Below the pieces are notes generated by a model. The model was not told the DNA's origin. It saw only the letters and a program-made list of their open reading frames with translations, and made no database searches. Positions 29,776-51,496 of a DNA stretch of 64,000 nucleotides are shown piece after piece (within the stretch, counting starts at the first letter, position 1; every line of letters begins with the position of its first letter). Made by a program: the position numbers and the translations under genes. The stretch lies in assembly GCA_020426005.1 (NCBI GenBank), contig JAGQQW010000003.1:1-64000 (forward strand), given 5' to 3'. This DNA is from Planctomycetota bacterium (GTDB lineage: Bacteria > Planctomycetota > UBA1135 > GCA-002748355).

Positions 29776-29860
29776 GTTTCACGATCGGGGCGGGCAGTCC
29801 ATGCTTTCCGCGACCGATTGTGAAGTAGACGGCGCGACGCTCCTTCGGCATCCTCATGCC

Positions 29861-31084
29861 ATGGCATTGACCGACGAACTCAAGCACACGGTGACGTTCC
29901 TGCTGGCTGGCGGACAGGGCGAACGCTTGATGCCCCTGACGAAGTCGCGTGCCAAGCCCGCGGTCCCGTTCGGCGGCGCCTATCGCATCATCGATTTCAC
30001 GCTGAGCAACTGTATTCATTCGGGCCTGCGTCGGATCTACGTGCTGACGCAGTACCAGGCGCGGAGTCTCGAGGAGCACATCCGCTTCGGTTGGAATTTC
30101 CTGCCGCGGCGGCTCGAGCAGTTCATCAGCGTGCGGCCGCCGCATCACGGCATCCACGCCAAGTGGTACCTCGGCACCGCCGATGCGATCTATCGCAACC
30201 TCGACACGCTCGAACACGATCGTCCTCGGCACACGTTGATCCTGTCGGGGGATCACATCTACAAGATGGATTACGGTCGCATGTTGCGGCAGCACGTGCG
30301 GACGGGTGCCAAGCTCACGATCGGTGCGGTCGAGATCGATGCGTCGGAGAGTCCGCGCTTCGGAATCTTCCAGGTCGATGACGAGCACCGTGTCGTCGCG
30401 TTCGAAGAGAAACCCGAGAAGGGCTCCGAGATCCCCGGCAAGCCGGGTCGCTGTCTCGCATCGATGGGGATCTACATCTTCGAGACCGGGGAGTTGATTC
30501 GACGTCTGCGCGAGAACGCGGCGATCGGAACCGGACACGACTTCGGGCACGACGTCATTCCTCGCATGATCGGGGAGTCGCCCGTCTTCGCGCATCCGTA
30601 TCAGGAGTTCGGTCGACAGGACGGGCCTTCGTACTGGCGCGACGTCGGGACGATCGAATCGTACTTCGACGCCAATCTCGATCTCTGTTCTCCGACGCCA
30701 TCCTTCAACCTCTATCAGAAGGAGTGGCAGACGTACACGCTCTGGCACAACGAACCGCCGGCAAAGACCGTCGCGGCGCGCGGGCGCGTCTGCGAGGTCG
30801 TCGACTCGATGTTGTGCCCGGGATCGATCGTCAGCGGCGCCACGGTCAAGAACTCGATCCTGTCCAACCGCGTCTACATCCAAGAAGGTAGCGAGCTCGA
30901 CGGTGCGATCCTGTTCGCCGGCGTCGTCGTCGGCCAAGGCGCGAAGCTACGGCGTTGCATCGTCGACAAGTGGACCGTCATCCCGGCCGGCGTCGAGATC
31001 GGCTACGACGAAGAGGACGACAGCGCACGCTATCCGCGCAGTGATACCGGCATCGTCGTGATCCCTAGCGGGTTCGAGTTCTGA
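29861..31084 (+). CDS. glgC: Glucose-1-phosphate adenylyltransferase
   Basis: 407 residues. The ATG at 29861 is chosen since the family begins just before VTFLLAGGQGERLMPLT (nucleotide-binding GGGxGxRLxPLT motif); the open frame continues ~126 bases upstream without homology. Other family marks are KPAVPFGGAYRIIDFTLSNC, HYxYxMDY-type ILSGDHIYKMDYGRM, the glucose-1-phosphate site FEEKP, and a C-terminal left-handed beta-helix (IVSGATVKNSILSNRVYIQ, LRRCIVDKWTVIPAG). It makes ADP-glucose from glucose-1-phosphate and ATP, the committed step in bacterial glycogen synthesis. glgA is 16 kb away in this window; no branching enzyme was seen. Confidence 0.95.
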   Translation: MALTDELKHTVTFLLAGGQGERLMPLTKSRAKPAVPFGGAYRIIDFTLSNCIHSGLRRIYVLTQYQARSLEEHIRFGWNFLPRRLEQFISVRPPHHGIHAKWYLGTADAIYRNLDTLEHDRPRHTLILSGDHIYKMDYGRMLRQHVRTGAKLTIGAVEIDASESPRFGIFQVDDEHRVVAFEEKPEKGSEIPGKPGRCLASMGIYIFETGELIRRLRENAAIGTGHDFGHDVIPRMIGESPVFAHPYQEFGRQDGPSYWRDVGTIESYFDANLDLCSPTPSFNLYQKEWQTYTLWHNEPPAKTVAARGRVCEVVDSMLCPGSIVSGATVKNSILSNRVYIQEGSELDGAILFAGVVVGQGAKLRRCIVDKWTVIPAGVEIGYDEEDDSARYPRSDTGIVVIPSGFEF

Positions 31085-34172: not shown

Positions 34173-37100
34173 TCATCGCGGTGCCTTCTCCAAGGTCGTA
34201 CGCATGCGCGTCGGGAGCGAGTGCGTCGTCCAAGGACGCAAGGTTCCGTCACCCGAGGCGGTGACGAGAGCATCGCGTGGATTCCATGCGAGGGCGTGGA
34301 CGTAGTCGCGATGAGCTACGAAGCGCGCGACGAGTTCGTGGTGCTCGGTTTCCCAGAAGAGCACCGAGCCGTCGCGGCCTCCCGTCACGATACGCGTGCC
34401 GTCGGGACTCTCTGCGCAGCACAACACGTCGGCGCCTTGGGGACCGAGGACCGCGATTCGTTCGCCCGTGGCCGTGTCCCAGACTCCCGTGGTGTCATCC
34501 TCCGACGCGCTGAGGAGTCTGGTTCCGTCGCGTGTGAAGGCGAGCTGCGTGATGGCTCCCGCATGAGCCTGCCACTCGCGTTCGATTGCTCCCGAATCGA
34601 GGTCGATGAGCGCGATGAGGGAGCGCCGTCGCGTGAGCGCGAGCGTGTGTCCGTCCGGTGAGATCGCGCATCCCACTGGATCGACGATGTCGCTTTGGAC
34701 CGGCCATCGATGTTGGACGATTCCACTCTCGAGATCCCAGAGGATGGCTTCTTCGAGGCCCCCGACGCTGACGACTCGGCGCCCGTCGGGATGCAGTGCC
34801 ACGCCGACGACCGTGTCGTTGTGTTCGTCGAAGCGTCGCAGCTCGCGCCCGGACGCGAGGTCGTAGACGACGACCGCACTCGTCTCCTGGCGTGTGGAGA
34901 TCGCAGCGACGACTCGTGAGTCGTCCTTCGTGATCTCGAGGGATCGGACGTAGGTTTCGGGCGCCAGGTGAGCAGCGATCGGTTCGCCCGTCGTCGCGTC
35001 CCAGATGCGGAGCGAACCGGGCTGCCTCGTGAAGCCGTCCCAGCCACCGGAAACGAGCAAGCTTCCATCGTGCGAGAACTGCACGTCATAGACGAAGCTC
35101 GTGTGTCCGCGGAGGATGCCGCCTTCTGGCGGCGCGATGAGCCAGGCGCGGTGCTTTCCGCTGCGGTCGCAGACGATCATGCGATCGGGCTTCTTGCGAT
35201 CGAACTCGATGCTGCTGATGCACGAAGAGTCATCGCTGTAACTGACCACGTGCGCGCCACTCGCGGTGTCCCAAACATGGACGCGACCTTGTCTGGTACC
35301 GACGATGAAGAACCGTCCGTCAGGTGAGAACGCGCACACGGTCGCCGTTCCGGTGCTGCCATGCAGTTCACGGCATGGGACGAAACGGCCGTCTTCGAAT
35401 CCGATCAACCACATGCGCCCCGATGCGGTCATGACGCCGAAGAGACTTCCGTCCGGCGACCACGTACCTCCAAGCAGTTGTCCCGCGTCGGGCAGTGGGT
35501 AGCTCTCGAGGAGTGGCTGCAGTGTCGTCGGATCACAGAGGCCGAGGCTCGAGTCGTAGGCCATGGCCAACGCATCGCGTCCCGGATGATAGGCTGCCCA
35601 CCACGCGTAGCACGGTGCATCGATCAAGACGTGGTCGTCGTCGCCGTCGCGCAACTCCGCGTGTCCCCGACGGTACGTGAGGTAGCCATGCTTGCCGAGG
35701 TCCACGGCCCACGAGAGGCCATGGGTTCCGCGGAACACGCACTCGAGTGGGTCGAGCTTCCAGCGTTCGAGCGTCTCGCCGAACAGCACGATCGAGTCGT
35801 CGCTCCGTGACATGGCCACGTATTGGCGTACACCCGAGTCGAGTCTGGCCAGTTCGAGACCGGCCTCGTCGACGACCGTGAACCTGCTGCTGCCAAAGGT
35901 CACGAGGCCGCTCACGAGCCACCGCGCATTCGAGAGCGGTAGTAACGAGGTCGCGAGCATCGAACTCGGAAATCCGGATTCGAAGCTGCGTTCGAATCGA
36001 CTCGCGAGATGGAACCACTCGAAGCCACGCAAGTGTTCCGGTGCTTCGGCGAGTAGGGGACGAGCGATCTCGATCCTGCCGTCGGCGATTGCGGTGGCGG
36101 CGCGGTCGATCTGCGAACGGTAGAGCTGTCGTTCGACCGCTTGGCGGGCGCGTTCGCTCTGGGTCGCGAGGTCGCTCATGCGCACGGCGACGATGGTCGT
36201 GAACAGGGCGGTCCCGGTGACGAGCGTGGCGATGACCGCGATCGACGTCGCGAGCGCACGGTTGCGTGCCACCCATCGACGAACGCGTCCGAGGGGTGAC
36301 GTGCGCCGCGCGTGGATCGGTTGATGCTCGACGAAGCGCTGCAGGTCGTCGCCGAGCTCCTTCGCGGACTCGTAACGACGACGCGGATCCTTCTCGAGTG
36401 CCTTCATCACGATCGTCTCGAGATCGACCGGAACGCTCGGATCGATCGACCGCGGAGGCTTGGGGTCCTCCTTCGTGATGCGCTCGATCAGGTGCAGGCG
36501 ATCCGGCGAATGAAACGCGGGTTGGAGTACCAGGAGTTCGTAGAGAGTCGCGCCGAGCGCGAACACGTCCGCACGTTCGTCGCACTGTCCGCGGAAGCGC
36601 TCGGGCGACATGAAGCGCAGCGTTCCGACGACGTCGCCACTATTGGTGAGTCCGCTGTCCTCGACCTTGGCGAGACCGAAGTCGGTCACCCAGACCGTGC
36701 CACTCGGATCGAGCAGCAGGTTGGATGGCTTAATGTCGCGATGAACGATGCCACGCTCGTGCGCGAAGGCGAGCGCATTCGCGACCTGCACGCCGATCTT
36801 CGCGATGCTGTACCAATACTGTCGACCGGCGAGTTTCGACGTTCCATTCGAGCCGGGCTCAGGTGTGTCCGAGATCAGGGACTCTCCGCGATCCGGTCCC
36901 TCATGGGATCGAAGGCGGCGAACTTCGTCCTGCACTTCATCGAGCGAGCGACCCGGCACGTACTGCATCGCGTAGTAGCGGACGTCGCCATCGGATCCGA
37001 TGTCGATGATCGGCACGATGTTGGGATGCTGCAGCTGGGCGGCAGAGCGCGCTTCGCGTTGGAACCTCTGCGTCGCGGTCTCGTCGTGCGCCGCGCGCGC

Positions 37101-37445
37101 CGGCAGGACCTTCAACGCGACGTGACGTCCGAGCGACAACTGCTCGGCTTCGTAGACGACGCCCATCCCGCCACGACCGATTTCGCGAAGGATGCGATAG
37201 TCGCCGATGTGTTCGAGGCGCGGCTGCGCGTGCATGTCTCCCGTGCGTTCGTCATGCGCCGCATCGTCCGGCGTCGGCTTGAACTGCTCGAGGAAGCGCA
37301 GCGTGGGAAACACGTCGCGGATCTGCTCGGCGAGTTCGGGGTGGCGCGCACAGTACTCCTCGAGCTCGGGTCGTTCGCCCGTGCGCAGACGCGCGAGGTA
37401 GTCCTCGCTGAGCCGATCCAGGAGCGGTAGCGCGTCGCCGTCCAT
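34173..37445 (-). CDS. Ser/Thr protein kinase with C-terminal WD40 repeats
   Basis: 1090 residues. Residues 1-75 form an N-terminal domain common in planctomycete kinases (DYLARLRTGERPELEEYCARHPELAEQI). The kinase domain (~82-375) has the Gly loop G90-x-G-x-x-G95, K112 (VALK), the catalytic HRDIKPSN at 235-242, DFG at 255-257 and SPE at 280-282. A membrane helix follows (~399-421), then ~650 residues with about seven or more WD40 repeats (e.g. VCAFSPDGRFFIVGTRQGRV, LRIWDATTGEP, LLSASEDDTTGVWDTATGE), so the propeller lies outside the cytoplasm and could sense a ligand. In planctomycetes such kinases often sit near ECF sigma factors, and one lies at 40081-40713. A TACGAT element lies just upstream. 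Confidence 0.92.
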   Translation of the reverse strand: MDGDALPLLDRLSEDYLARLRTGERPELEEYCARHPELAEQIRDVFPTLRFLEQFKPTPDDAAHDERTGDMHAQPRLEHIGDYRILREIGRGGMGVVYEAEQLSLGRHVALKVLPARAAHDETATQRFQREARSAAQLQHPNIVPIIDIGSDGDVRYYAMQYVPGRSLDEVQDEVRRLRSHEGPDRGESLISDTPEPGSNGTSKLAGRQYWYSIAKIGVQVANALAFAHERGIVHRDIKPSNLLLDPSGTVWVTDFGLAKVEDSGLTNSGDVVGTLRFMSPERFRGQCDERADVFALGATLYELLVLQPAFHSPDRLHLIERITKEDPKPPRSIDPSVPVDLETIVMKALEKDPRRRYESAKELGDDLQRFVEHQPIHARRTSPLGRVRRWVARNRALATSIAVIATLVTGTALFTTIVAVRMSDLATQSERARQAVERQLYRSQIDRAATAIADGRIEIARPLLAEAPEHLRGFEWFHLASRFERSFESGFPSSMLATSLLPLSNARWLVSGLVTFGSSRFTVVDEAGLELARLDSGVRQYVAMSRSDDSIVLFGETLERWKLDPLECVFRGTHGLSWAVDLGKHGYLTYRRGHAELRDGDDDHVLIDAPCYAWWAAYHPGRDALAMAYDSSLGLCDPTTLQPLLESYPLPDAGQLLGGTWSPDGSLFGVMTASGRMWLIGFEDGRFVPCRELHGSTGTATVCAFSPDGRFFIVGTRQGRVHVWDTASGAHVVSYSDDSSCISSIEFDRKKPDRMIVCDRSGKHRAWLIAPPEGGILRGHTSFVYDVQFSHDGSLLVSGGWDGFTRQPGSLRIWDATTGEPIAAHLAPETYVRSLEITKDDSRVVAAISTRQETSAVVVYDLASGRELRRFDEHNDTVVGVALHPDGRRVVSVGGLEEAILWDLESGIVQHRWPVQSDIVDPVGCAISPDGHTLALTRRRSLIALIDLDSGAIEREWQAHAGAITQLAFTRDGTRLLSASEDDTTGVWDTATGERIAVLGPQGADVLCCAESPDGTRIVTGGRDGSVLFWETEHHELVARFVAHRDYVHALAWNPRDALVTASGDGTLRPWTTHSLPTRMRTTLEKAPR

Positions 37446-40713: not shown

Positions 40714-40724
40714 CCTTCGGTCAC
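40710..40724. terminator. Short hairpin across both stop codons
   Basis: GTGACC-TTC-GGTCAC, 6-bp perfect arms, covers the TGA of the ECF gene (40711-40713) and the TGA of the convergent esterase gene (40721-40723). No U-tract follows. It may be a weak bidirectional terminator or a coincidence of opposed stop codons. Confidence 0.3.
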
Positions 40725-41494
40725 GCGTCGCTGGTCGTCGCCGTTTCCTTCGCTTCGATCGGAAACAGCTCGTCGAGGTAGTACGGCAGCATGCGTCGCC
40801 ACAGCGGCCAGTCGTGGTCCCAGCCTTCCCACTCGATCACACGGTTGGGGATGCGGGCTGCACCGAGGAGGTCCGCGAGTTGCCACGATTGTTCGGGGTC
40901 CTCGAAGCGCCCCGTGCCGGTCACGATCAGTGCGAGGCGTTCGCGTGCTTTCGTGAGCGTCGGCCCTTGCGGGTCGAGTCGCGGCAAGAAGTGCATGGGG
41001 GACGCGGCGACGAACGCGTCGTCGACCGGACCGCGCAGGATCTTCTGCGTCAGGTCGTAGGTGCCACTCATCAGGATCGCGTGCGAGACGTCGTAGGGGT
41101 GGCGCAAGAACATCGAGAGCGCTTGGAACGCGCCGATCGACGGACCGGTCACGACCAGCTCGATCGCGTCGTCGCCGCAGTCCTTGCGGATCGCGGGCAG
41201 CACTTCGTGTTCGAGCGCTTGATCGTACGCGTGCTGGATTCGCGCACCACCCTTGGTCGACGCGTCCTCCTTGAGCCACACCATGCCTGCCGTCGAGTCG
41301 CACGAGTAGAGCTTGATGCGTCCTGCTTCGAGCAGGTCGGACAATGCGTCCACGAGCAAGAAGCGCTCACATTCCTCCGCATCACCGGCGGCGGTCGGGA
41401 AGAAGAGGACCGGGCGTCCGACTTCCCCCCAACGGCAGAGCGTCAAGTCGCGCGACAAGCGCTCCGAGTACCAGGTTTCCTTCGCCTTCGTCAT
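40721..41494 (-). CDS. Cytosolic esterase-family alpha/beta-hydrolase
   Basis: 257 residues with no signal peptide. The fold resembles the esterase D/COG4947 group: GRPVLFFPTAAGDAEECERF at the first strand, a nucleophile elbow VTGPSIGAFQ (S119 in G-P-S-I-G), HAILMSGTYDLTQKI, and a late His in WEGWDHDWPLWRRMLPYYL. It is the last gene of the six-gene minus-strand run; its ATG overlaps the upstream ATP-grasp stop (ATGA), so the two are coupled. It may hydrolyse an ester or thioester of the product or precursor made by the ligases; the substrate is unknown. Confidence 0.82.
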   Translation of the reverse strand: MTKAKETWYSERLSRDLTLCRWGEVGRPVLFFPTAAGDAEECERFLLVDALSDLLEAGRIKLYSCDSTAGMVWLKEDASTKGGARIQHAYDQALEHEVLPAIRKDCGDDAIELVVTGPSIGAFQALSMFLRHPYDVSHAILMSGTYDLTQKILRGPVDDAFVAASPMHFLPRLDPQGPTLTKARERLALIVTGTGRFEDPEQSWQLADLLGAARIPNRVIEWEGWDHDWPLWRRMLPYYLDELFPIEAKETATTSDA

Positions 41495-42720
41495 CGAGTC
41501 TTTCTCGGTTGGTTGCTGTCTCGCTCACGCTCGCGCCACAGTTGGACGCGGCGCCAGAAGAGTTCGGAGAACTCGTCGTGTTCGTCCTCGGGATACAGGG
41601 CTGCGACCTTGGCGCGAATCGCGTTGTGGCAGTCCTCGGTGCCGAACCAATCCCATGCGATGGAATCGAGGTCGGCGAGTTCGGACTTGCAGAACGACTC
41701 GAACGCATCTGCATCGAAACGCTTGCGCGCGATGTTCGCGTACGCGGTGAGGCGCTCGCGATACGGCAGATCGGGATCGACCTCGAAGAACTCGCCCCAC
41801 GACAGATTGAGGCGCATCTTGCGCTGCGTCATCGCGCAGAACAGCGACCAACGGATCTTGGCCTTGATCAGCCAAGGCCAGTGGAAGTGCAGCGACGTGA
41901 CCTGACTGTCGGGGCACGGGTTCGCGAAGTCGATCGGATACCACGTCCCGTCCTGTCGCAGCGACTCGCACGAGTTGAAGTCCCAGCCGAAGAACGCGTT
42001 GATCGTCAGCGTGATGTCCTCGAGCTCCTTCACGTCGTCCGGTTCGAGGAAGTCGAAGTCGATCGTGTAACGATCGTGCAGGGGGGCCGAGGGTGCGTAG
42101 CGCACGTAGCGAACTTGCGGACCGAGGCCGATGCAGCGCACGAACGCGTCGTGCGGGACGATACCGCGCTGCAGATGCATGACGAGGTTGCCGCTCTCGT
42201 CGTAGGCCTGGGCGAGCTCTTCGCCGTCATCGGCTTTGGCGACACCGACCCAGCCACCGCCGTCGTACGGCTTCATGAAGATCGGGTAGCCGATCTGCTC
42301 ACCGATCGCGGGCAGATCGAAGAGCTTGGCGTAGCTCTGCAGCGTCCGCTCGAGGTCGGGCACGTCCTTGTAGCTCTTGGGCGGAATCAACCAGGTCTTG
42401 GGCACGTGGAGGCCGAGCCGCATCATCGCGCAGTAGGTGGTCTGCTTCTCCATCGACTGGACCGACCACGGATTGTTGAAGACGTACACGTCGTCGAGCA
42501 GCAGTGCCTTCTTGATCCATTCGCGACGCACGCCGTACCAGTGCGTGAGACGATCGATCACGACGTCGTAGTCGATCGACTGCTCGAGATCGAAGGGCTC
42601 GATCGGCACGCGATCGATCGCCACGTCGAGTCCGAGTTGATTGACGATGTGCTCGTACGCGATCGGCCAACAGATGTCGGCGCCGAGAGAGAGCCCGATG
42701 CGCCGGGTCGTGGAAGTCAT
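41491..42720 (-). CDS. ATP-grasp ligase A (RimK-like type)
   Basis: 409 residues of the ATP-grasp fold: the ATP-binding lysine lies in YPIFMKPYDGGGWVGVAKAD, and the metal-binding end reads WYPIDFANPCPDS, with Asp and Asn as in D-x-x-N variants of the E-x-N motif. The N-terminal pre-ATP-grasp domain starts GLSLGADICWPIAYEHIVNQL. It belongs to a different group than the three 406-residue ligases nearby. Such enzymes join a carboxylate to an amine via an acyl phosphate. A Shine-Dalgarno AAGGGGA lies in the 46-bp gap upstream, and its stop overlaps the esterase start. The substrate is unknown; it acts in the cytosol. Confidence 0.82.
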   Translation of the reverse strand: MTSTTRRIGLSLGADICWPIAYEHIVNQLGLDVAIDRVPIEPFDLEQSIDYDVVIDRLTHWYGVRREWIKKALLLDDVYVFNNPWSVQSMEKQTTYCAMMRLGLHVPKTWLIPPKSYKDVPDLERTLQSYAKLFDLPAIGEQIGYPIFMKPYDGGGWVGVAKADDGEELAQAYDESGNLVMHLQRGIVPHDAFVRCIGLGPQVRYVRYAPSAPLHDRYTIDFDFLEPDDVKELEDITLTINAFFGWDFNSCESLRQDGTWYPIDFANPCPDSQVTSLHFHWPWLIKAKIRWSLFCAMTQRKMRLNLSWGEFFEVDPDLPYRERLTAYANIARKRFDADAFESFCKSELADLDSIAWDWFGTEDCHNAIRAKVAALYPEDEHDEFSELFWRRVQLWRERERDSNQPRKTR

Positions 42721-42766
42721 GCAGTCCCCTTGTCAGTCGGGCGAGAGAAAGCGAGAAGCGAGCCGA

Positions 42767-43900
42767 TCATTCGTAGACGAGCCAGAGCGGACCCGGGAAG
42801 AGCCACGAAAGCCCCTCGCGCATGCGATCTCGCCAGTTCTCCCAGTTGTGGCCGTCGCGTGCTTCGACATAGCGCAGCTCGGCGCCCGTGTCGCGAAGGA
42901 TCGGGACCATCGAGCGGTTGTAGTAGATCAGCGATTCGTAGGTGCCACAGCTCACGAAGATGCGTTGCGCAGGCCGCTTCGGATCGTCGCGATAGCGATT
43001 GACGAACTGAACGACGGGGTCGAAGAGCGGCCCGCGGTCGTGATCCCCGATGTCCGTGAACGCGAAGCTACCGGACTGGAGGAAGAGGTTCTCGAACACA
43101 CCCGGCTTGCGCAACGCGGTCGACAGGGACGCGACCGCGCCGAAGCTCGCGCCGCCGAGACCGCGCGCGGCTGGACTGTCGACGAGCGAGAACCGCTCGT
43201 CCGCCCACGACACGACTTCGTCGGCGATGAAGTCCGCATGCCGCGGATCGTCGGCGTACTCGTGGAGCCGGTTGGGTGATTGCGTCATCACGACGACCAT
43301 CTGCGGAATCTCGAGGCGATGCGTGAGGTTGTCGAGGATCGTCACGAGACTCGCGAAGCGCTCATAGTCCTGACCGTCGTGCATGACGAGGAGCGGATAG
43401 CGTCGCGTCGGTCGATACCGAGCTGGCAGATAGACACGAAGGTCACGTGAGCCGCCGAAGACCCGGCTCTCGATCTTGTGGTCCTGCGTCTCGCCGCGCC
43501 GAGCCTCGGAGTCTTCGAGCGCCCAGTCCGGGAACTCGTAGCCGGCCCCTTGGACGACCGAGTTCGCTCCGTATGGATCGCGCGCGAAGTGTGGATTGTG
43601 AGGGTCGGCGATCAGTCGCCGCTGCCCGTTCTTGCGGATCTCGAGCTTGTACTCGACGCGCGAGCGCTCGGGGATATCGATCGTCAGGTGGAAGAGGTTC
43701 GTCCCCGGCATGCGCTCGAACTGTTGGCTCGACGGCAGTCCGAAGATCCAGTGTTGGAGGTAGACCTCGTCGACGAAGCCGTGGAAGACGAACGTGACCT
43801 TCGATCCGTCGACGAACGGCAGCTCGTGTTGTTCGAGGAAGGCGTCGATTGCCGCTTCGTTGCGGCCTTGTTCGGCGAGTTCGCGAAGGAGCTGGTTCAT
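42767..43900 (-). CDS. Fes-like esterase with N-terminal CBM48/E-set-like domain
   Basis: 377 residues from the ATG at 43900 (the frame continues upstream, but this ATG overlaps the S51 gene stop as ATGA). Residues ~30-122 form a small beta-sandwich (VTFVFHGFVDEVYLQHWIF, FHLTIDIPERSRVEYKLEI, NPHFARDPYGANSVV) like the CBM48/E-set domain in front of enterochelin esterases and glycogen enzymes. The alpha/beta-hydrolase follows: YPLLVMHDGQDYERF, nucleophile S252 in G-A-S-F-G, and a late GHNWENW His. It is cytosolic, as no signal peptide is seen. The E-set domain may bind carbohydrate, which would fit glgA nearby; this is inference. Confidence 0.83.
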   Translation of the reverse strand: MNQLLRELAEQGRNEAAIDAFLEQHELPFVDGSKVTFVFHGFVDEVYLQHWIFGLPSSQQFERMPGTNLFHLTIDIPERSRVEYKLEIRKNGQRRLIADPHNPHFARDPYGANSVVQGAGYEFPDWALEDSEARRGETQDHKIESRVFGGSRDLRVYLPARYRPTRRYPLLVMHDGQDYERFASLVTILDNLTHRLEIPQMVVVMTQSPNRLHEYADDPRHADFIADEVVSWADERFSLVDSPAARGLGGASFGAVASLSTALRKPGVFENLFLQSGSFAFTDIGDHDRGPLFDPVVQFVNRYRDDPKRPAQRIFVSCGTYESLIYYNRSMVPILRDTGAELRYVEARDGHNWENWRDRMREGLSWLFPGPLWLVYE

Positions 43901-44862
43901 GCTGCACTCCCGCTCGTCTGGAGCAACACGACCGAACCGTCTTCCTCGAGCCGGCTCGAACCATCGACATGCGTCAAGACGTTCTGGCGCGCTTCGAGGC
44001 AAGCTCCATCATCGAGTGCGATCGCGCGCGCTGGTGCGAACCGCCGCGCGAACAAGGCGACCCGCATCGGATCATCGAGACGCAGACGCCGCTTGGCATG
44101 TGGCAGCACGACGATGTCCTTCACGAGACCGAAGCCCGGTTCGAGCAACTCCGCATCGCCGGCGCCTTGAGGCGGGCGATCGTGGAACAACACGATGTCG
44201 TCGCAGAGGACCATCGCACCGGCCGACCATGCGAAGATCGGACGAGCGCCCCAGTGGTCGAGGACGCCGAGGGCTCGCATGCGGTTGAGCAGGATCGCGA
44301 CATGGCCACCGGCGATGCAGAGCGCGCTGCAGGTCTCGAGAGTGGCACGGATCTCATCACGCTGGCGTTCGAGCTCCGGGTGACGAGATGGATCGAGACG
44401 CTCGCGGAACGCCGTGTGGATGTCCGCGACGTGTTCTCGATGCTTGCGATCGATGATGCGAACGGCATCGATCGACGCCTCGGTCGCGAGTTCGTAGAGG
44501 TCCTCGCACCAGCCATCGTGCGTCGTCAGGAGTTCTCGCGCCGACGCGAGTGCATGGGCGAGCTGCCTCTGGTAGAGGCGCCGCAGGACGCGAATGCGAT
44601 CGTAGCGCTCTTGCATCGCCGCGCGCAGTTCCGAGTCCGCTGCGAAGACTCCTTCGAGTCGGCCCCAGATGCGGAGGTCGACGACGTCGCGCGCGACGTG
44701 CGAACGCAGTTCTTCGTCCTCGCCTTCGCGTTCTTCCCAGCCGCCCGTGATCGTCGCGATGCGATCCCCGATCTGCGCGCGATCGAGTGCGGGACGCAAC
44801 GTCGGATGCAGTCGCTGCGGTCCGAGAAGATGGACGTGGTCCGGAATGTGGAGCGTGGTCAT
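43897..44862 (-). CDS. S51/cyanophycinase-like serine hydrolase with helical insertion
   Basis: 321 residues from the ATG at 44862, 11 bp after the ATP-grasp B stop; the frame continues upstream antisense to that gene. The class I glutamine-amidotransferase-like/S51 pattern is visible: a first strand ending ITGGWEE (36-44), then ALCIAGGHVAILLNRMRALG and a nucleophile elbow at S213 (AWSAGAMVL), then FHDRPPQ. Between the first strand and the second there are ~130 residues, mostly helical (RIRVLRRLYQRQLAHALASA), against ~50 in typical S51 peptidases. S51 enzymes cut cyanophycin or dipeptides ending in Asp; here it probably cleaves an amide product of the neighbouring ligases. Catalysis is not proven. 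Confidence 0.75.
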   Translation of the reverse strand: MTTLHIPDHVHLLGPQRLHPTLRPALDRAQIGDRIATITGGWEEREGEDEELRSHVARDVVDLRIWGRLEGVFAADSELRAAMQERYDRIRVLRRLYQRQLAHALASARELLTTHDGWCEDLYELATEASIDAVRIIDRKHREHVADIHTAFRERLDPSRHPELERQRDEIRATLETCSALCIAGGHVAILLNRMRALGVLDHWGARPIFAWSAGAMVLCDDIVLFHDRPPQGAGDAELLEPGFGLVKDIVVLPHAKRRLRLDDPMRVALFARRFAPARAIALDDGACLEARQNVLTHVDGSSRLEEDGSVVLLQTSGSAA

Positions 44863-44873
44863 GGCCTTGCCGG

Positions 44874-46094
44874 TCAACCGGCCCTCAGGATCAGGTCCGT
44901 GGCGATGCTGTCCGCCATGCGGCACGTGGTTTCGAAATCGGGATGACGCACGACGATCCAGCCGTCGCCGTGCACGATCTTTCGCCAGTCGCGCTTGGGC
45001 GCGCCGACGCGATTGAGGTCGATCGCGGCGATGTGCTCGCCGAACCGCGCGAAGACGCTCTCGAGTCCTTCGATCGCCGTGATGCGTGGTCCAGCGCCCT
45101 GCGCCTTCTTGAAGATGACGGCTGCCGCGAATTTCTTGGATACGTCCTGCGAGATGCGCCCGTGACAGACGGCTTCGGCCCAGCCGGTGAAGAGATCGGC
45201 GTCGGTCGAGTAGTTCATGACGTGCACGAGACGACCGCCGGGGCTGCGCCCACCGATCTCCCCGAAGACCGCTTCTCCGTCCTTCGTTCGGAACCACTCC
45301 ATGTGCGTGAAACCACTCTCGAACCCGAGTGCGTCGAGCACACGCCGACCCATCTCGCGACCCTGCGCCGGGATCTCCTGATCGAGGTCGTGGTAGCACA
45401 CGTTGACAGCGCTGATCCACGGGTTGAGCCGCGCGATCAGTGGTCCGGGACGGTACCAACCGACGTTCTCGAAGAGCGGTGTGCCGTGCGCGCAGACCGT
45501 GTCGTAGGTGTATTCCTCGCCTTCGATGAACTCTTCGACACTGACGACCGGCACGTGTTGAATCGCGCGCAAGGCGTGCTCGAGTTCGTCGTTCGAGCGA
45601 ATCGGCCACGTGTCGGCAGAACCCGCTCCGTCGAGCGGCTTGACGATGATCGGATACCCGATGCGGTCCGCAGCCTGGCGCACTTCCTCGCGCGTGCGCG
45701 CGTCGTAGTGGTGCGGCGTGCGGATGCCGGCGGCGTCGAGCACGCGCTTCATGCGCTCCTTGTCCCGGAACGGCACGGTCTGCTCCGCGCGCAGGCCCGG
45801 TGCACCGAGAGCTTCGCGCAGCTTGGCCGCGAGCATCATGCCCGGTTCCCAGAGCACCTCGACGCGATCGATCCGGCGGTTGCCGAGCCAGTGCCGGACT
45901 TCCCCGACGACGCGGGCTTCGTCCCACAGATCGCGCACCTGGAGATAGTCGTGCAGCGAAGCGGCGACGTCGGGTGCGAGGGCCGACCTCGGTTGGTCGC
46001 CGAGGCCGTAGACCTCGGCGCCGACGCGAGCGAGGCCACGCGTGAACAGCGGCATCTCGGTCGGGAACCCCGGAGAAATCATCAAGACGCGCAT
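44874..46094 (-). CDS. ATP-grasp ligase B, 406-residue paralogue
   Basis: 406 residues. An N-terminal pre-ATP-grasp domain (MRVLMISPGFPTEMPLFTRG, LGDQPRSAL) leads to the ATP-grasp core: RDKERMKRVLDAAGI (110-124), IIVKPLDGAGSADTW with K152, and the hinge VSVEEFIEGEEYTYDTV. The signature T263-HMEWF is followed by E279-IGGRSPGG where most ATP-grasp enzymes have E-x-N. It should form an amide bond using ATP and a carboxylate; the substrate is unknown. It lies 28 bp after ligase C and 11 bp before the S51 gene on the same strand, and is cytosolic. The length equals ligases C and D exactly. Confidence 0.85.
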   Translation of the reverse strand: MRVLMISPGFPTEMPLFTRGLARVGAEVYGLGDQPRSALAPDVAASLHDYLQVRDLWDEARVVGEVRHWLGNRRIDRVEVLWEPGMMLAAKLREALGAPGLRAEQTVPFRDKERMKRVLDAAGIRTPHHYDARTREEVRQAADRIGYPIIVKPLDGAGSADTWPIRSNDELEHALRAIQHVPVVSVEEFIEGEEYTYDTVCAHGTPLFENVGWYRPGPLIARLNPWISAVNVCYHDLDQEIPAQGREMGRRVLDALGFESGFTHMEWFRTKDGEAVFGEIGGRSPGGRLVHVMNYSTDADLFTGWAEAVCHGRISQDVSKKFAAAVIFKKAQGAGPRITAIEGLESVFARFGEHIAAIDLNRVGAPKRDWRKIVHGDGWIVVRHPDFETTCRMADSIATDLILRAG

Positions 46095-46122
46095 CGTTCG
46101 TTCCTCGTGAGTCCGTTGCCGT

Positions 46123-47343
46123 TCATGCGAGTTCGACGCGGATCGTTCGCACGACGCGCGCGAGAGCTTGTTCGATCGCCGTGCTGTCCTCACCACGCAG
46201 GATGACGTATCCCTCGCCTTCGTAGCTGCTCGCGCCGGGTTGGCCGGTCTTCGGCAGCTTCGCCTCGACGACGAGGTCGCCGAGATCGCGCCTCGCTTCT
46301 TCGATGCCGTGGATCTTCTTGACCTTGCCACGACCTTGTCCGCGCAAGAACGCCGCTCCGACCGAGTAGCGACGCTTCGGCACGTCGAATCGATCACAGC
46401 TCACGAGCTCCGCCCAGCCGCGATAGAAGTCGAAGTCGTAGGCGTACGAGAGCAACGACGTGAACTGCGCCCCTGGCGGTCGCGCCGCTACTTCGGAGAT
46501 CGCGATCGAACCATCGGGACGCGCGAACCACTCCATGTGCGTGAGTCCCGTGTGCATGCCGAGTGTGTCGAGCGCCCGTGGCCCGGCCTCGAAGATCGGG
46601 GCGTACTCCGGACGATCGAGTTCGCGCCGTAGCAGCACGCACCACTGGATCCACGGATTCTCCATCACCTCGAGGGGCGTGGGGAAGTACTCGGTGATCG
46701 AATGCAGCAGGTGACGTCCGCGAATGGACGCACTGTCGAAGCTGAACTCGCGCCCGGTCACGAACTCCTCGAGCATGAGTGGCGCCTTCGGAGTCGGCGG
46801 GAAACTGCGCAGCCAGTTCCCGAGCTGTTCGACGGTCTCGAGGCGTGCCGTGTTGCGCGCTCCGGCGCCCGCGATCGGTTTGGCGACGACGGGGAAGCCG
46901 ACCTGTTCGGCGAAGTGCATGGCTTCGGAGGCCGAATGGCAGCGGCGATGCTTGGCGCATGGGATCTGTGCTGCGCCGAAGCGGTCCTTCATCCGCGCCT
47001 TGTCGCGGAAGTTGTGGGCCGCGTCGACCGAGAGCCCTTCGATCCCGAGTTCCTGACGCAGCTCGGCGAGCGGCACCTGGAGTTGTTCGAGGATGCCCAC
47101 GACGCGATCGATTCCGTGCATCGAGTGCGCCAACTTGCGGACCGCGTGGCGCAGGTGCTGGAGGTTCTCGGCATTGTCGACGCGCTCGAACCCCGAGATC
47201 CGACTCTTGAGGTCGGCGCCGAGACGCTCGAAGGGCTCTTGAGTCACGATGCCGAGTTCGACGTCGGGAAGCGACGCGGCGGCGCGGACGAAGCGCATCG
47301 TGGTGTCGAGGGCGAACGGGGCGACGAAGAGGACGCGGACCAT
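46123..47343 (-). CDS. ATP-grasp ligase C, 406-residue paralogue, first gene of the run
   Basis: 406 residues from the ATG at 47343. The pre-ATP-grasp domain starts MVRVLFVAPFALDTTMRFV. Core motifs: NFRDKARMKDRFGAAQI, VVAKPIAGAGARNTAR with K155, LMLEEFVTGREFSFDS, then T268-HMEWF and E284-VAARPPGA, again lacking the usual Asn after Glu. It is the first gene of the minus-strand run and is divergent from glgA, with only 52 bp between the start codons. A TATGCT element at 47354-47359 lies 10 bases before its ATG. As for the other ligases, amide bond formation is inferred from the fold; the substrates are not known. Confidence 0.85.
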   Translation of the reverse strand: MVRVLFVAPFALDTTMRFVRAAASLPDVELGIVTQEPFERLGADLKSRISGFERVDNAENLQHLRHAVRKLAHSMHGIDRVVGILEQLQVPLAELRQELGIEGLSVDAAHNFRDKARMKDRFGAAQIPCAKHRRCHSASEAMHFAEQVGFPVVAKPIAGAGARNTARLETVEQLGNWLRSFPPTPKAPLMLEEFVTGREFSFDSASIRGRHLLHSITEYFPTPLEVMENPWIQWCVLLRRELDRPEYAPIFEAGPRALDTLGMHTGLTHMEWFARPDGSIAISEVAARPPGAQFTSLLSYAYDFDFYRGWAELVSCDRFDVPKRRYSVGAAFLRGQGRGKVKKIHGIEEARRDLGDLVVEAKLPKTGQPGASSYEGEGYVILRGEDSTAIEQALARVVRTIRVELA

Positions 47344-47353
47344 GAATGACGCA

Positions 47354-47387
47354 AGCATACGAGGGACGCTGGTCCTACTGCTATGCT
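47354..47387. promoter_or_regulatory. Divergent leaderless-type promoter pair between ligase C and glgA
   Basis: In the 52-bp gap between the two start codons, TATGCT stands on the minus strand (47359 down to 47354), 10 bases before the ligase C ATG, and TATGCT stands on the plus strand (47382-47387), 8 bases before the glgA ATG. Both are good -10 matches in the same small region. -35 regions would overlap each other; none is clear. Confidence 0.45.
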
Positions 47388-47395
47388 TCGCGCCG

Positions 47396-48859
47396 ATGGA
47401 TCCGCTCGAAATCCTCTCGGTCAGCTCGGTGGTCGCCCCGTTCGCCAAGACGGGGGGGCTCGCCGACGTTTGCAATGCACTCCCTGCGGGCTTGGTCCGG
47501 CATGGCGAGCGCGCGCGCGCGGTCATGCCGTTCTACGGGCGCGTCCGCAAGGAGGTGCGGGCGAAGCCGGTGCCCGGGTTGCAGTCGCTGCGATTCGAAA
47601 TGGGAGGCAAGGACTATGGCGCGTCGGTCCATCGGACGACGCTTCCCGGTTCGAAGACCGAGGTTCTGCTCGTCGACGTACCCGGCTTGTTCGACGGGGA
47701 TGCGATCTACGACGGCGACCGCGACGCGCTGCGCTTCCTCGCCTTTTCTCGGGCGGTCATCGCGTTGATGCAGTGGGAAGGTCGAGCGCCCGACATCCTG
47801 CACTGTCACGATTGGCACACGGCGCTCCTGCCGCTCTTCCTGAAGAAGGCCTACGACTGGGACCGTCTCTTCGCCCAGACCAAGACCGTCCTGACGATCC
47901 ACAACCTCGGGTATCAAGGTGTCGTGCCGGCGAGTCACATCGGAGCGCTCGGCCTCGAGCCGATCCGCAGTGCTCTGCATCAGGACGAACTCGCGCAAGG
48001 GCGCTTCTCGTGCCTCTTGCACGGAATCTTGTACGCCGATGTCCTCACGACCGTCAGCAAGACCTACGCGCGTGAAATCCGGACGCCCGAGCACGGCATG
48101 GGGCTCGATCGGGTGCTCGAGGCGCGCAAGGACAGTCTCTTCGGAATCGTCAACGGGATCGACGATCGCATTTGGAATCCGCGCACCGACACGGCGATCG
48201 CGGCCACGTACGATGCCGAGGATCGCTCCGGAAAAGTGCGCTGCAAGAAGGATCTCGCGAAGCACTTCGGTCTCGAACTCGGACCGACGACGCCGCTCTT
48301 CGGGATCGTGTCGCGACTCACGCCGCAGAAGGGCTTCGAGCTCCTCCCCGATGTCCTACCGGTCTTCTTGCAGCGTGAGGACATGGCGCTCGTCGTGCTC
48401 GGTAGCGGTGACGAACGCCACGAACGCTACTTCGCGTGGCTCGAGGATGCGTTCCGCGGCCGCGTCGGTTTTCATCGCGGCTACGACGACGCGCTCGCGC
48501 ATCGGATCGAAGCGGGTGCCGACGCGTTCTTGATGCCGAGTCGATACGAACCGTGCGGGCTCAATCAGCTCTACAGCCTCGCCTACGGGACGATCCCGAT
48601 CGTGCGTCGCACGGGTGGGCTCGCCGACACGGTGGTCGACTGGGATCCCGAGACCGGCGCGGGCAATGGATTCGTGTTCGACGACTTCACGAGTGCCGCG
48701 CTGCAGCAAGCGATCCGGCGCTGCCTCGACGCTTGGAAGTTCGACAAGGGGTGGGCCCGCCTGCAGGAGAACGCGATGGCGGTCGACTTCTCGTGGGACA
48801 AGCAGATCCTCGAGTACGTCACGCTCTACGAGCGTCTCGCGCGGCGTTCGTCGGTCTGA
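47396..48859 (+). CDS. glgA: Glycogen synthase (ADP-glucose dependent)
   Basis: 487 residues of the GT5 family. The ATG at 47396 starts just before the typical SVSSVVAPFAKTGGLADVC, with the ADP-glucose-binding K18-TGGL motif. Further marks are DILHCHDWHTALLPLFL, VLTIHNLGYQG, TTVSKTYAREI, GIVNGIDDRIWNP, and the C-terminal PSRYEPCGLNQLYSLAYGT with TGGLADTV near the end. It transfers glucose from ADP-glucose to the growing alpha-1,4 chain. GlgC is 16 kb away. The position divergent from the ligase run, with TATGCT elements on both strands, suggests the two could be controlled together. The CDF gene follows after 13 bp. Confidence 0.95.
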   Translation: MDPLEILSVSSVVAPFAKTGGLADVCNALPAGLVRHGERARAVMPFYGRVRKEVRAKPVPGLQSLRFEMGGKDYGASVHRTTLPGSKTEVLLVDVPGLFDGDAIYDGDRDALRFLAFSRAVIALMQWEGRAPDILHCHDWHTALLPLFLKKAYDWDRLFAQTKTVLTIHNLGYQGVVPASHIGALGLEPIRSALHQDELAQGRFSCLLHGILYADVLTTVSKTYAREIRTPEHGMGLDRVLEARKDSLFGIVNGIDDRIWNPRTDTAIAATYDAEDRSGKVRCKKDLAKHFGLELGPTTPLFGIVSRLTPQKGFELLPDVLPVFLQREDMALVVLGSGDERHERYFAWLEDAFRGRVGFHRGYDDALAHRIEAGADAFLMPSRYEPCGLNQLYSLAYGTIPIVRRTGGLADTVVDWDPETGAGNGFVFDDFTSAALQQAIRRCLDAWKFDKGWARLQENAMAVDFSWDKQILEYVTLYERLARRSSV

Positions 48860-48872
48860 AACCGAGTCGATC

Positions 48873-49745
48873 ATGAGCACGCTTTCGTGGCTGCACGATC
48901 CGGGGCTCAGGGCCCACGCCGTCGGGCTCACGATCAATCTCTTCTTGACGATTGCGAAGTTCGTCGTCGGATGGATCGCGGCAAGTGAGGCGTTGACGGC
49001 CGACGGCTTCAATTCGGCGGGGGACATCTTCGCGACCGCGGTCGGCTTCGCAGGCTACGCGTATTCGAAGAAGCCGGCCGACGACGACCATCACTACGGT
49101 CACGGCAACGCGGAGAGCATCGCCGGCCTCGTGATCGGAACCGTCCTCGCCGCGACGGGCATCTTCATCGCGATCGAAGGCTTGCTCGCCTGGATCGCGG
49201 GCAAGACCGAACCCCCGGGCTCACTCGCACTCTGGGTCGCGGCGATCACGGTCGTGTCCAAAGAAGCGCTCTATCGCTACGCACACGCTGTCGGCAGCCG
49301 GTTGCGTTCTCCGTCCCTGCTCGCGAGCGCGCGCGACCATCGAGGGGACGTGCTCGTCGCGTCGACGGTGTTCGCCGGGATCTTCACGGCGCGGCTCGGG
49401 GTGCCTGCGCTCGACCCGATTGCCGCGTGCGGCATCGGGCTCTACATCTCGTGGTTCGCGATCGAACCGATTCGCTCCAACGTCGGCATTCTGATGGATC
49501 AGGCTCCGCCGGACCTGAAGGACAGCTTCGAGCGTCTCGTGCTCGAGGACGAAGACGTTCGCCGCGTCGACCAACTGCGGGTCCATCCGGTCGGAGCGCG
49601 CTTCGTCGTCGATCTCGAGATCTACGTCGATGGCGAGATCTCCCTACGCGACGCTCACGAGATCGCGCACAGGGTCGAAGACCGCATCCAGGCCGCGCGC
49701 GACGACATTGACAGCGTGCACGTGCACGTCAATCCGGATCCGTGA
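48873..49745 (+). CDS. Cation diffusion facilitator transporter
   Basis: 290 residues, typical for the CDF family. The metal site motif of helix II is ALTADGFNSAGD, followed by YGHGNAESIAGLVIG (the HxxxE-like pattern), later SARDHRGDVLVASTVFAG for helix V, where H/D residues bind metal, and the cytosolic C-terminal domain IDSVHVHVNPD. About six membrane passes are seen. It would export Zn, Mn, Fe or Co using proton exchange; the ion cannot be chosen from the sequence. It lies 13 bp behind glgA, probably in one transcript, and its end overlaps the convergent DUF1648 gene by 17 bp. Confidence 0.9.
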   Translation: MSTLSWLHDPGLRAHAVGLTINLFLTIAKFVVGWIAASEALTADGFNSAGDIFATAVGFAGYAYSKKPADDDHHYGHGNAESIAGLVIGTVLAATGIFIAIEGLLAWIAGKTEPPGSLALWVAAITVVSKEALYRYAHAVGSRLRSPSLLASARDHRGDVLVASTVFAGIFTARLGVPALDPIAACGIGLYISWFAIEPIRSNVGILMDQAPPDLKDSFERLVLEDEDVRRVDQLRVHPVGARFVVDLEIYVDGEISLRDAHEIAHRVEDRIQAARDDIDSVHVHVNPDP

Positions 49746-50241
49746 CGGCGGGTCGTCGGAAGCGGAGCACGAACCGAACGGTCACGACCGTGATGACGGC
49801 GAGATAGGTGCCGAGGACGAGCCACGGCGAGAGTCGCGCTTCGCTCGTGCCGAGGTTGTTCCGCACGATCTCGACGTCGATGACCAGTAGCAGGGCCATC
49901 GTGACGAGGAGGAAGAGCGTCATGGTGTTCTGGATCGCCTCGAACGTCGCATCCCGCCTCGTCGGGTGCAGCCAGTAGTCCTTGTGCGGCAGATTGATGA
50001 GCGAAGCCGGCATCTTGGGGATCAGCCATAGGGTCCCGGCGAACGTCCCGAGCAAGAAGGTCGCGACAGCGGTCATCGTCAGGACGAACGCATCCCGGCT
50101 CATCGTGTCGACGGCGTTGCCGGCCATGTCGAAGCGCGTCGCGACCGGATCGCGCAGGTCGTTCCAGGACCACAACAGGTGACCGACGACGAGGGCGTAG
50201 GGAGCAAAAAGGAGGAACGCACGCTTCACGGCTGCGACCAT
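49729..50241 (-). CDS. DUF1648-domain membrane protein
   Basis: 170 residues. The N-terminal AFLLFAPYALVVGHLLWSWNDLRDPVATRFDMAGNAVD matches the DUF1648 signature (LPxxVxxHFxxxGxxD) found in SdpI-like and other membrane proteins; three further hydrophobic segments follow (VLTMTAVATFLLGTFAG, TMTLFLLVTMALLLVIDV, WLVLGTYLAVITVVTVRFVL). Its role is unknown; SdpI proteins act in immunity to a killing peptide, but this protein is shorter. It lies divergent from ligase D with a 34-bp gap. Confidence 0.75.
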   Translation of the reverse strand: MVAAVKRAFLLFAPYALVVGHLLWSWNDLRDPVATRFDMAGNAVDTMSRDAFVLTMTAVATFLLGTFAGTLWLIPKMPASLINLPHKDYWLHPTRRDATFEAIQNTMTLFLLVTMALLLVIDVEIVRNNLGTSEARLSPWLVLGTYLAVITVVTVRFVLRFRRPAVTDPD

Positions 50242-50262
50242 AACGATTTCGCGATCGCCTGG

Positions 50263-50268
50263 TAGGCT
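50263..50268 (+). promoter_or_regulatory. Possible -10 element TAGGCT for ATP-grasp ligase D
   Basis: TAGGCT ends 7 bases before the GTG at 50276 within the 34-bp divergent gap. No -35 assigned. Confidence 0.3.
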
Positions 50269-50275
50269 GTGGCGC

Positions 50276-51496
50276 GTGCACGTCCTCTTCGTCGAACCGG
50301 CTTTCCCCGCGAACCAACGCGAATTCGTCAGGGCCTTGACGCAGGTCGGGGCCGCCGTGACCGGAATCGGAGAATCGCCGGCCTCGGCGTTGCCCGAAGA
50401 CGTGCGGCGACAACTGACGCACTACGAACAAGTGCGCTCGGTCGTCGACGGCGGCGCCCTCTATGACGCGGTGCGCCGTTGCCAGCAGCGCGGCTGGGTC
50501 GATCGACTCGAGTGCACGGTCGAAGCGCACGTCGAGCCGACCGCGGCCGTGCGCGAAGCGTGTGACATCCCGGGCATTTCCAAGCAGACGGCGTTCCTCT
50601 GCCGCGACAAGCCGGCGATGAAGGCGGCGCTCCGCGAGGCCGGTATCCCGTGCGCGCAAACGATCGGCACGGGGGACTTCGCCGAGGCCAAGGAGTTCGC
50701 CGCGTCCGTTGGCTACCCGGTCTGCGTCAAGCCACGCGATGCCGCGGGGGCGTCGGGGACGCATCGCTGCAATGACGAAGAAGAACTCGTGCGCGCGCTC
50801 GAAGTCAGCGGCGTGGGCCGCGGTGCCCAGGTCGGGATCGAAGAGTGGATCGAAGGCCACGAGGGCTTCTACGACACGATCTGCGCCGACGGCGAGATCC
50901 TCCACGACTTCGCGTGTCACTACTTTCCCGGCGTGCTCGAGGCCATGCGCACGCGCTGGATCTCGCCGCAGATCGTCCTGACCAACCGTCTCGACTCCGC
51001 GCCCGACTATGCCGAAGTCCGCGAACTCGGAAAACGCGTGATCGACACGCTCGGCATCACGACGGCGGCGACGCACATGGAGTGGTTCTTCGGGCCGAAG
51101 GGACTGAAGTTCTCCGAGATCGGTTGTCGTCCACCCGGGGTGCGCGTGTGGGACTTCTACGGAAAGGGTAACGACATCGATTGCTACCTCGAGTGGGCCA
51201 AAGCGATCGTGCACGGCAAGACCGACGTGAAGTGCAGCCGAAGACTCGCAGCCGGCATGATCGCACTGCGTCCGGACCGAGATGGTCGCATTCAGGGCTA
51301 CTCCGGCCGTGAGATCCTCGATCGCTACGAGGACTGCTTGATCGATGCGCACTTCCCGGCGCCGGGCACGCCGACGCAACCCGTCGAGAATGGGTATCTC
51401 GCCAACGCCTGGGTGCGTATGGCGCATCCCGACTTCGATCGCTTGCAGCAGATCCTCGGCGAGGTGGGCGAGACCGTTCGCGTGCACGCAGGCTGA
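50276..51496 (+). CDS. ATP-grasp ligase D, 406-residue paralogue
   Basis: 406 residues from a GTG start. The pre-ATP-grasp part begins MHVLFVEPAFPANQREFVRA; the core has LCRDKPAMKAALREAGI, VCVKPRDAAGASGTH with K152, and the hinge VGIEEWIEGHEGFYDTI. The shared signature is T266-HMEWF followed by E281-IGCRPPGV, with Gly in place of the usual Asn. Its length and motifs group it with ligases B and C. It stands alone on the plus strand, divergent from a DUF1648 gene, and ~3 kb away from the main run, so it may have a separate promoter. Function is inferred from family; the substrate is unknown. Confidence 0.85.
   Translation: MHVLFVEPAFPANQREFVRALTQVGAAVTGIGESPASALPEDVRRQLTHYEQVRSVVDGGALYDAVRRCQQRGWVDRLECTVEAHVEPTAAVREACDIPGISKQTAFLCRDKPAMKAALREAGIPCAQTIGTGDFAEAKEFAASVGYPVCVKPRDAAGASGTHRCNDEEELVRALEVSGVGRGAQVGIEEWIEGHEGFYDTICADGEILHDFACHYFPGVLEAMRTRWISPQIVLTNRLDSAPDYAEVRELGKRVIDTLGITTAATHMEWFFGPKGLKFSEIGCRPPGVRVWDFYGKGNDIDCYLEWAKAIVHGKTDVKCSRRLAAGMIALRPDRDGRIQGYSGREILDRYEDCLIDAHFPAPGTPTQPVENGYLANAWVRMAHPDFDRLQQILGEVGETVRVHAG

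Follow-up and report, generated by a model that had tools for sequence, protein, structure and literature searches.

Organisation of the locus

The 64,000-nucleotide stretch analysed here (the window: positions 1 to 64,000 of contig JAGQQW010000003.1 in assembly GCA_020426005.1 of a Planctomycetota bacterium, a genome that is 67% complete) contains a compact group of genes in which four predicted ATP-grasp ligases (A, B, C and D), two putative serine esterases (F and E1) and a protein with the peptidase S51 fold (S) lie beside a glycogen synthase gene, glgA (Table 1). Six of these genes form a run on the minus strand, in which E1 and A, as well as F and S, are coupled by 4-bp ATGA overlaps, and the remaining gaps are 46, 11 and 28 bp. 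The divergently oriented C and glgA are separated by 52 bp. Open reading frame (ORF) calls confirmed the coordinates, both overlaps, the gaps and the divergence from glgA reported in a first-pass annotation made from the sequence alone, which had regarded the genes as a candidate pathway. With family assignment based on the curated cut-offs of Pfam and NCBIfam, the labels proposed there were retained for the esterases E1 and F, for S, for the ATP-grasp proteins B, C and D and for GlgA. The ligase label of A was recovered only through weak Ddl matches and a predicted fold, and the CBM48 label of F was not supported.

Table 1. Genes of the locus and the associated glgC-like gene in the window
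Gene	Predicted product	Position	Strand	Basis of assignment
E1	Short alpha/beta-hydrolase (Pfam Esterase, 34 bits)	40721-41494	-	ORF call and Pfam
A	ATP-grasp ligase, RimK/ArgX/LysX/Ddl-like fold with C-terminal helical domain	41491-42720	-	Predicted fold, weak Ddl matches
F	Enterochelin-esterase/CE1-like hydrolase with N-terminal domain (Pfam Esterase, 75 bits)	42767-43900	-	
S	Peptidase-S51/cyanophycinase fold (Pfam Peptidase_S51, 27.5 bits, cut-off 23.9)	43897-44862	-	
B	ATP-grasp, L-amino acid ligase family (Pfam ATP-grasp above cut-off)	44874-46094	-	
C	ATP-grasp, L-amino acid ligase family, LAL_C2 domain (Pfam ATP-grasp above cut-off)	46123-47343	-	
glgA	Glycogen synthase of the system-associated clade (TIGR02095, 513.8 vs 328.45 bits)	47396-48859	+	
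D	ATP-grasp, L-amino acid ligase family (Pfam CPSase_L_D2 above cut-off)	50276-51496	+	
glgC-like	Nucleotidyltransferase, ADP-glucose synthesis; looser member	29861-31084	+	

Conservation of the gene neighbourhood

A search of 154 genomes of the window's class for A detected it in 75 of them, in 72 at high similarity, and among the 40 neighbourhoods retrieved the order D-glgA / C-B-S-F-A-E1, with D beside glgA, recurs. An alignment of A, used to scan a species-level collection of named genomes, yielded 583 stretches, including 530 confirmed A relatives. The best 80 of these are assigned to Planctomycetota, Myxococcota, Pseudomonadota (alpha and gamma), Acidobacteriota, Gemmatimonadota, Actinomycetota and Candidatus Eisenbacteria; the organism names are those submitted in the record titles, and metagenome bins may include foreign contigs.

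Adjacency was counted in the 108 distinct loci that remained after duplicate removal. S and F are same-strand neighbours in all 80 loci carrying both, with the 4-bp ATGA overlap in 63, and A and E1 are neighbours in 93 of 100 loci (ATGA coupling in 48). The corresponding values are 81 of 99 for F and A (coupling in 3) and 41 of 46 for glgA and D (coupling in 11). When the count was confined to the loci from this collection that span 15 kb or more, 45 in all with duplicates kept, F was found in 45, E1 in 40, S in 37, D in 36, B in 29, glgA in 28 and C in 27. The glgC gene recurs near the set in 41 clustered loci (duplicates kept), and the branching enzyme gene, glgB, adjoins some sets. The most conserved member is A.

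The gene set is conserved far above chance. It is extremely improbable that unrelated enzymes are merely co-located here, since gene order, overlaps and co-occurrence are conserved in at least seven phyla. The first-pass annotation had made conservation of the neighbours in relatives its own test of whether the genes form one unit; that neighbourhood holds across these phyla and is accompanied by near-perfect co-occurrence. D and glgA, which it had placed next to the run, also belong to the set: the former stands beside glgA in most loci with both and co-occurs with A and S in the class genomes, and the latter is tied in by its adjacency to D and the co-occurrence of the system-type GlgA. In the window itself, a cation diffusion facilitator (CDF) transporter and a DUF1648 protein (48873-50241) sit between glgA and D, unlike in most relatives, where the two genes are directly adjacent.

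Recent horizontal spread was suspected from the identity of A across phyla, which is about 60%. However, the A tree largely tracks the phyla, needing 11 changes where 6 would be the minimum, which is better explained by an old origin under strong constraint. A plasmid-borne trait and an anti-phage defence system were likewise considered and rejected, as A had no match in 72,556 plasmids and no PADLOC match was obtained. With at least 530 candidate loci carrying A relatives in at least seven phyla, the pathway appears to be common and strongly conserved.

A dedicated glycogen synthase

When the system-type GlgA was tallied with A, S and D in the class genomes, the two members of a pair were found together in 67-70 genomes and both lacking in 78-80; exceptions numbered 1-5 in each direction and fell mostly in incomplete genomes. 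For the pairs A/S, A/D, S/D and D with the system-type GlgA, the number of genomes with both is 69-70. The associated p-values (p < 1e-31) were computed without regard to shared ancestry and are not to be taken literally. The stronger argument from co-occurrence is provided by family f8, in which the full set is kept but divided, S-F-A-E1 being located at one site and D-glgA/C-B at another.

An ordinary GlgA, about 30-36% identical to the system type, was found whether or not a genome carries the system. In a GlgA tree of 86 rows, constructed by a quick method with limited outgroups, every locus-linked GlgA falls in one clade with a Shimodaira-Hasegawa-like approximate likelihood ratio test (SH-aLRT) value of 99, and GlgAs not linked to a locus, from these or related genomes, fall outside it. 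The few rows inside this clade labelled as other GlgAs are the same genes found twice, or belong to genomes that carry the system elsewhere. By sequence, the GlgA of the locus is a dedicated enzyme whose gene is linked to those of D and C. The locus would connect the chemistry of amide ligases with a glycogen synthase branch of its own, which lies outside the textbook picture of bacterial glycogen.

The same genes could also encode two co-regulated but chemically separate reserves, namely a peptide or amide compound from A-D that would store nitrogen or act as a compatible solute, and ordinary glycogen from GlgC and GlgA. Such an arrangement would agree with the occurrence of the core without glgA in Alphaproteobacteria and Actinomycetota. 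Moreover, most f8 genomes show a single GlgA match, of the system type, and this lone enzyme could serve ordinary glycogen synthesis. The frequent adjacency of glgA and D (41 of 46 loci) and the existence of a locus-specific GlgA clade nevertheless suggest more than shared regulation, and we regard separate reserves as a serious possibility, less probable than the pathway proposed below.

The ATP-grasp ligases

A joint profile of B, C and D, searched against the PDB, gave L-amino acid ligases as its best matches: 4wd3 (1.2e-35), 3vot (BL00235, 9.6e-28) and the alanine-anticapsin ligase BacD (4.5e-24). The likeness extends over much of the profile length, and the HxE and ExxxR motifs line up with those of the known enzymes. 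The ATP-grasp catalytic residues K152, E189/E190, E269, E281 and R285 are invariant in 19 sequences. The LAL_C2 domain of Pfam was matched above the cut-off of 29.4 bits by C (32.4 bits) and below it by D (17.0 bits), and not matched by B; mutual identity among the three proteins is about 30-35%. On the profile matches and the invariant residues, all three are members of the L-amino acid ligase family, which agrees with the earlier proposal of sequential ligations that build a peptide- or amide-linked compound. Unlike the known L-amino acid ligases, three paralogues are found here together, in the company of GlgA, esterases and one more ligase. Several class genomes encode an additional ATP-grasp paralogue that resembles D (43-48% identity) and has no other system gene beside it (L164, L165 and L166 in G081, G071 and G132, respectively).

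The predicted model of A (predicted local distance difference test, pLDDT, 86.6) is closest to the solved folds of RimK (5zk6, E 6.8e-11), ArgX/LysX and Ddl. Residues Lys150, Glu252, Asp264 and Asn267, to which ATP- and metal-binding roles may be assigned from the superfamily, are invariant in 43 of 43 homologues. According to this model, A is an ATP-grasp ligase of the RimK/Ddl fold. It differs from RimK, ArgX/LysX and D-Ala-D-Ala ligases in its low identity to them (about 15%), in an extra C-terminal helical domain and in scoring below all family cut-offs. The fold similarity raises the possibility of a protein-tagging or tail-adding system, in which A would attach amino acids to a protein; GlgA or a carrier could be that target. 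The identity to RimK and ArgX/LysX is, however, low, and no small carrier protein gene was seen in the run, where the gaps are 11-46 bp, so that this function is improbable.

Operons with several amide ligases that perform successive ligations are known from multi-ligase ATP-grasp pathways, including antibiotic-making clusters (PMC4431377). The locus resembles these amidoligase operons in combining several ligases; no description was found of the present gene set, of an association with a dedicated GlgA clade or of a range that takes in at least seven phyla.

The esterases and the S51-like protein

Ser119, His227 and Asp228 of E1 are invariant in 18 homologues, and the putative triad of F (Ser252, Glu322 and His351) in 18 of 18. 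The closest PDB match of F is enterochelin esterase, and F resembles both Fes and the CE1 feruloyl esterases in its catalytic domain and triad. Unlike Fes, it reaches 92.6 bits where the enterochelin esterase equivalog requires 222, has an N-terminal domain that could not be assigned to a family and is set among ligases and GlgA. For this N-terminal domain no cut-off was reached: the window protein matched Enterochelin_N with 17.3 bits against 27.1, and 12 of 18 homologues did so at E <= 0.01. A domain search of the 18 F sequences found no CBM48, contrary to the first-pass annotation, and no glucan-binding domain above cut-off.

If the locus encoded a siderophore or other secondary-metabolite pathway in which Fes-type esterases release the product, the closest PDB match of F would be accounted for, and amide-ligase clusters producing antibiotics offer a precedent (PMC4431377). 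Against it stand the score of F, far under the equivalog cut-off, the lack of siderophore genes noticed nearby, and a broad, steady distribution with glycogen genes, unlike that of a patchy metabolite cluster. We consider such a pathway improbable.

The esterase fold also includes acyltransferases. It could be hypothesised that the ligases make a peptide which proteins of the F/E1 fold transfer to, or remove from, hydroxyl groups of an alpha-glucan extended by GlgA. The coupling of the dedicated GlgA clade to D and the recurrence of glgC and glgB nearby would be in line with such an amino-acyl- or peptide-bearing glucan; minimal loci without GlgA, together with the result of the search of F for glucan-binding domains, speak against it, and we rate it as unlikely.

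The predicted model of S (pLDDT 92.4) is closest to S51 peptidase and cyanophycinase, and in a profile alignment Ser213 and His255 coincide with the catalytic Ser and His of true cyanophycinases. The protein differs from cyanophycinase in an insert of two long helices (residues 77-155) and in the fact that the catalytic His is not universal. Ser213 is kept in 46 of 48 homologues; in the other two (L099 and L134) it is replaced by Ala with the His position retained. His255 is present in the window protein, and His occupies this position in 32 of 48 homologues, being replaced in 16, in 12 of them by Asp. The S51-like label of the first-pass annotation agrees with the fold, the Pfam cut-off and the Ser nucleophile; the general-base His varies within the family, and the argument from S51 activity is weak. 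Because of these replacements, activity of S as a peptidase is plausible in the window and doubtful elsewhere.

A cyanophycin system, to which the earlier annotation had drawn a comparison, was rejected. S missed the cyanophycinase equivalog cut-off (14.1 vs 126.6 bits), and no cyanophycinase was matched in the window's incomplete genome. The locus lacks a ligase with the architecture of cyanophycin synthetase; the best score of a window ligase for this enzyme was 45 bits against a cut-off of 850, the rest of the genome not having been searched for the synthetase.

Lineage variants and the proposed pathway

The composition of the set varies among lineages. In Alphaproteobacteria and Granulosicoccus the set comprises F-A-E1, in most cases D, and often a GCS2 carboxylate-amine ligase gene directly upstream, but no glgA. 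The compact GCS2-F-A-E1-D form is kept in cultured Alphaproteobacteria, the marine Rhodobacteraceae Aliiruegeria and the soil bacterium Microvirga, which makes the question of its function directly testable. A GCS2-CBS protein follows E1 in Myxococcota, Actinomycetota and Candidatus Eisenbacteria; in the first of these phyla an N-formylglutamate-amidohydrolase-like gene is present as well. Relatives of A at 41-45% identity occur in full or shortened sets. By sequence, the core consists of A, D and the serine esterases F and E1, to which most lineages add S, B and C.

The locus probably represents an old amide-ligation system, previously undescribed and distributed over several phyla, which is coupled to ADP-glucose and glycogen genes and makes an amino-acid-derived compound. 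A and D, and then B and C, would form successive ATP-dependent amide (peptide) bonds, resulting in a small amino-acid-derived compound, and the GCS2 carboxylate-amine ligase would supply a further step in some lineages. F and E1 could load, unload or trim acyl groups on the compound, and S could be directed at it too, with hydrolase activity confined to lineages that retain the His. The product would be made alongside, or joined to, an alpha-glucan produced by GlgC and the dedicated GlgA, and sequence cannot tell these two options apart. A storage or osmotic role of the product, suggested earlier, is conjecture, as is its cleavage by the run. It appears quite unlikely that the product is an alpha-glucan to which amino acids or peptides are attached through amide or ester bonds. 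Such a polymer would store carbon and nitrogen together; GlgA, using ADP-glucose, and the four ligases would build it, and F, E1 and S would open it. No description of this gene set was found in the open-access literature searched, in accordance with the first-pass statement that no described system has exactly this composition.

Several observations weigh against the proposed pathway. A reached no Pfam or NCBIfam cut-off and gave only weak Ddl matches, and the His of S is variable, as described above. The core occurs without linked glgA in Alphaproteobacteria and Actinomycetota, which means that the set can do without a link to glucan. No other gene of the set accompanies the A-like genes at 33-39% identity, and GCS2-CBS was found in 107 of the 154 class genomes, many of them without the system, for which reason it was rejected as a marker. 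In addition, the loci were sampled by similarity to A, so that A is present in all of them by construction, and in the species-level collection the neighbourhoods inspected were those of the best 80 of the 530 A relatives.

Distant relatives and neighbouring genes

The solo A-like ligases (L203, L207, L208, L209, L210 and L212) were considered as a clue to the substrate. Their neighbours include protein kinases, which follow the ligase gene in L203, as well as YqeC, an aminotransferase and an ABC ATPase, without a common theme, and this approach was abandoned. More divergent A-like genes, about 30% identical to A, are found in L051, L060 and L061, where a GCS2 ligase accompanies them. So does cluster 36, a family of proteins of about 400 amino acids without a Pfam match, for which no relation to A, B-D, F, E1 or S was found. 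In L060, an M29-like peptidase and a branching enzyme are located beside E1.

The genome from which the window derives encodes a GCS2-CBS ligase on another contig (L170, G000 contig C304), 53% identical to the protein adjoining E1 in Candidatus Eisenbacteria. Within the window, a GH57 glycosidase gene lies beside the glgC-like gene (28549-31084), about 10 kb from the run, and positions 34173-37445 encode a large protein kinase with WD40 repeats at its C-terminus.

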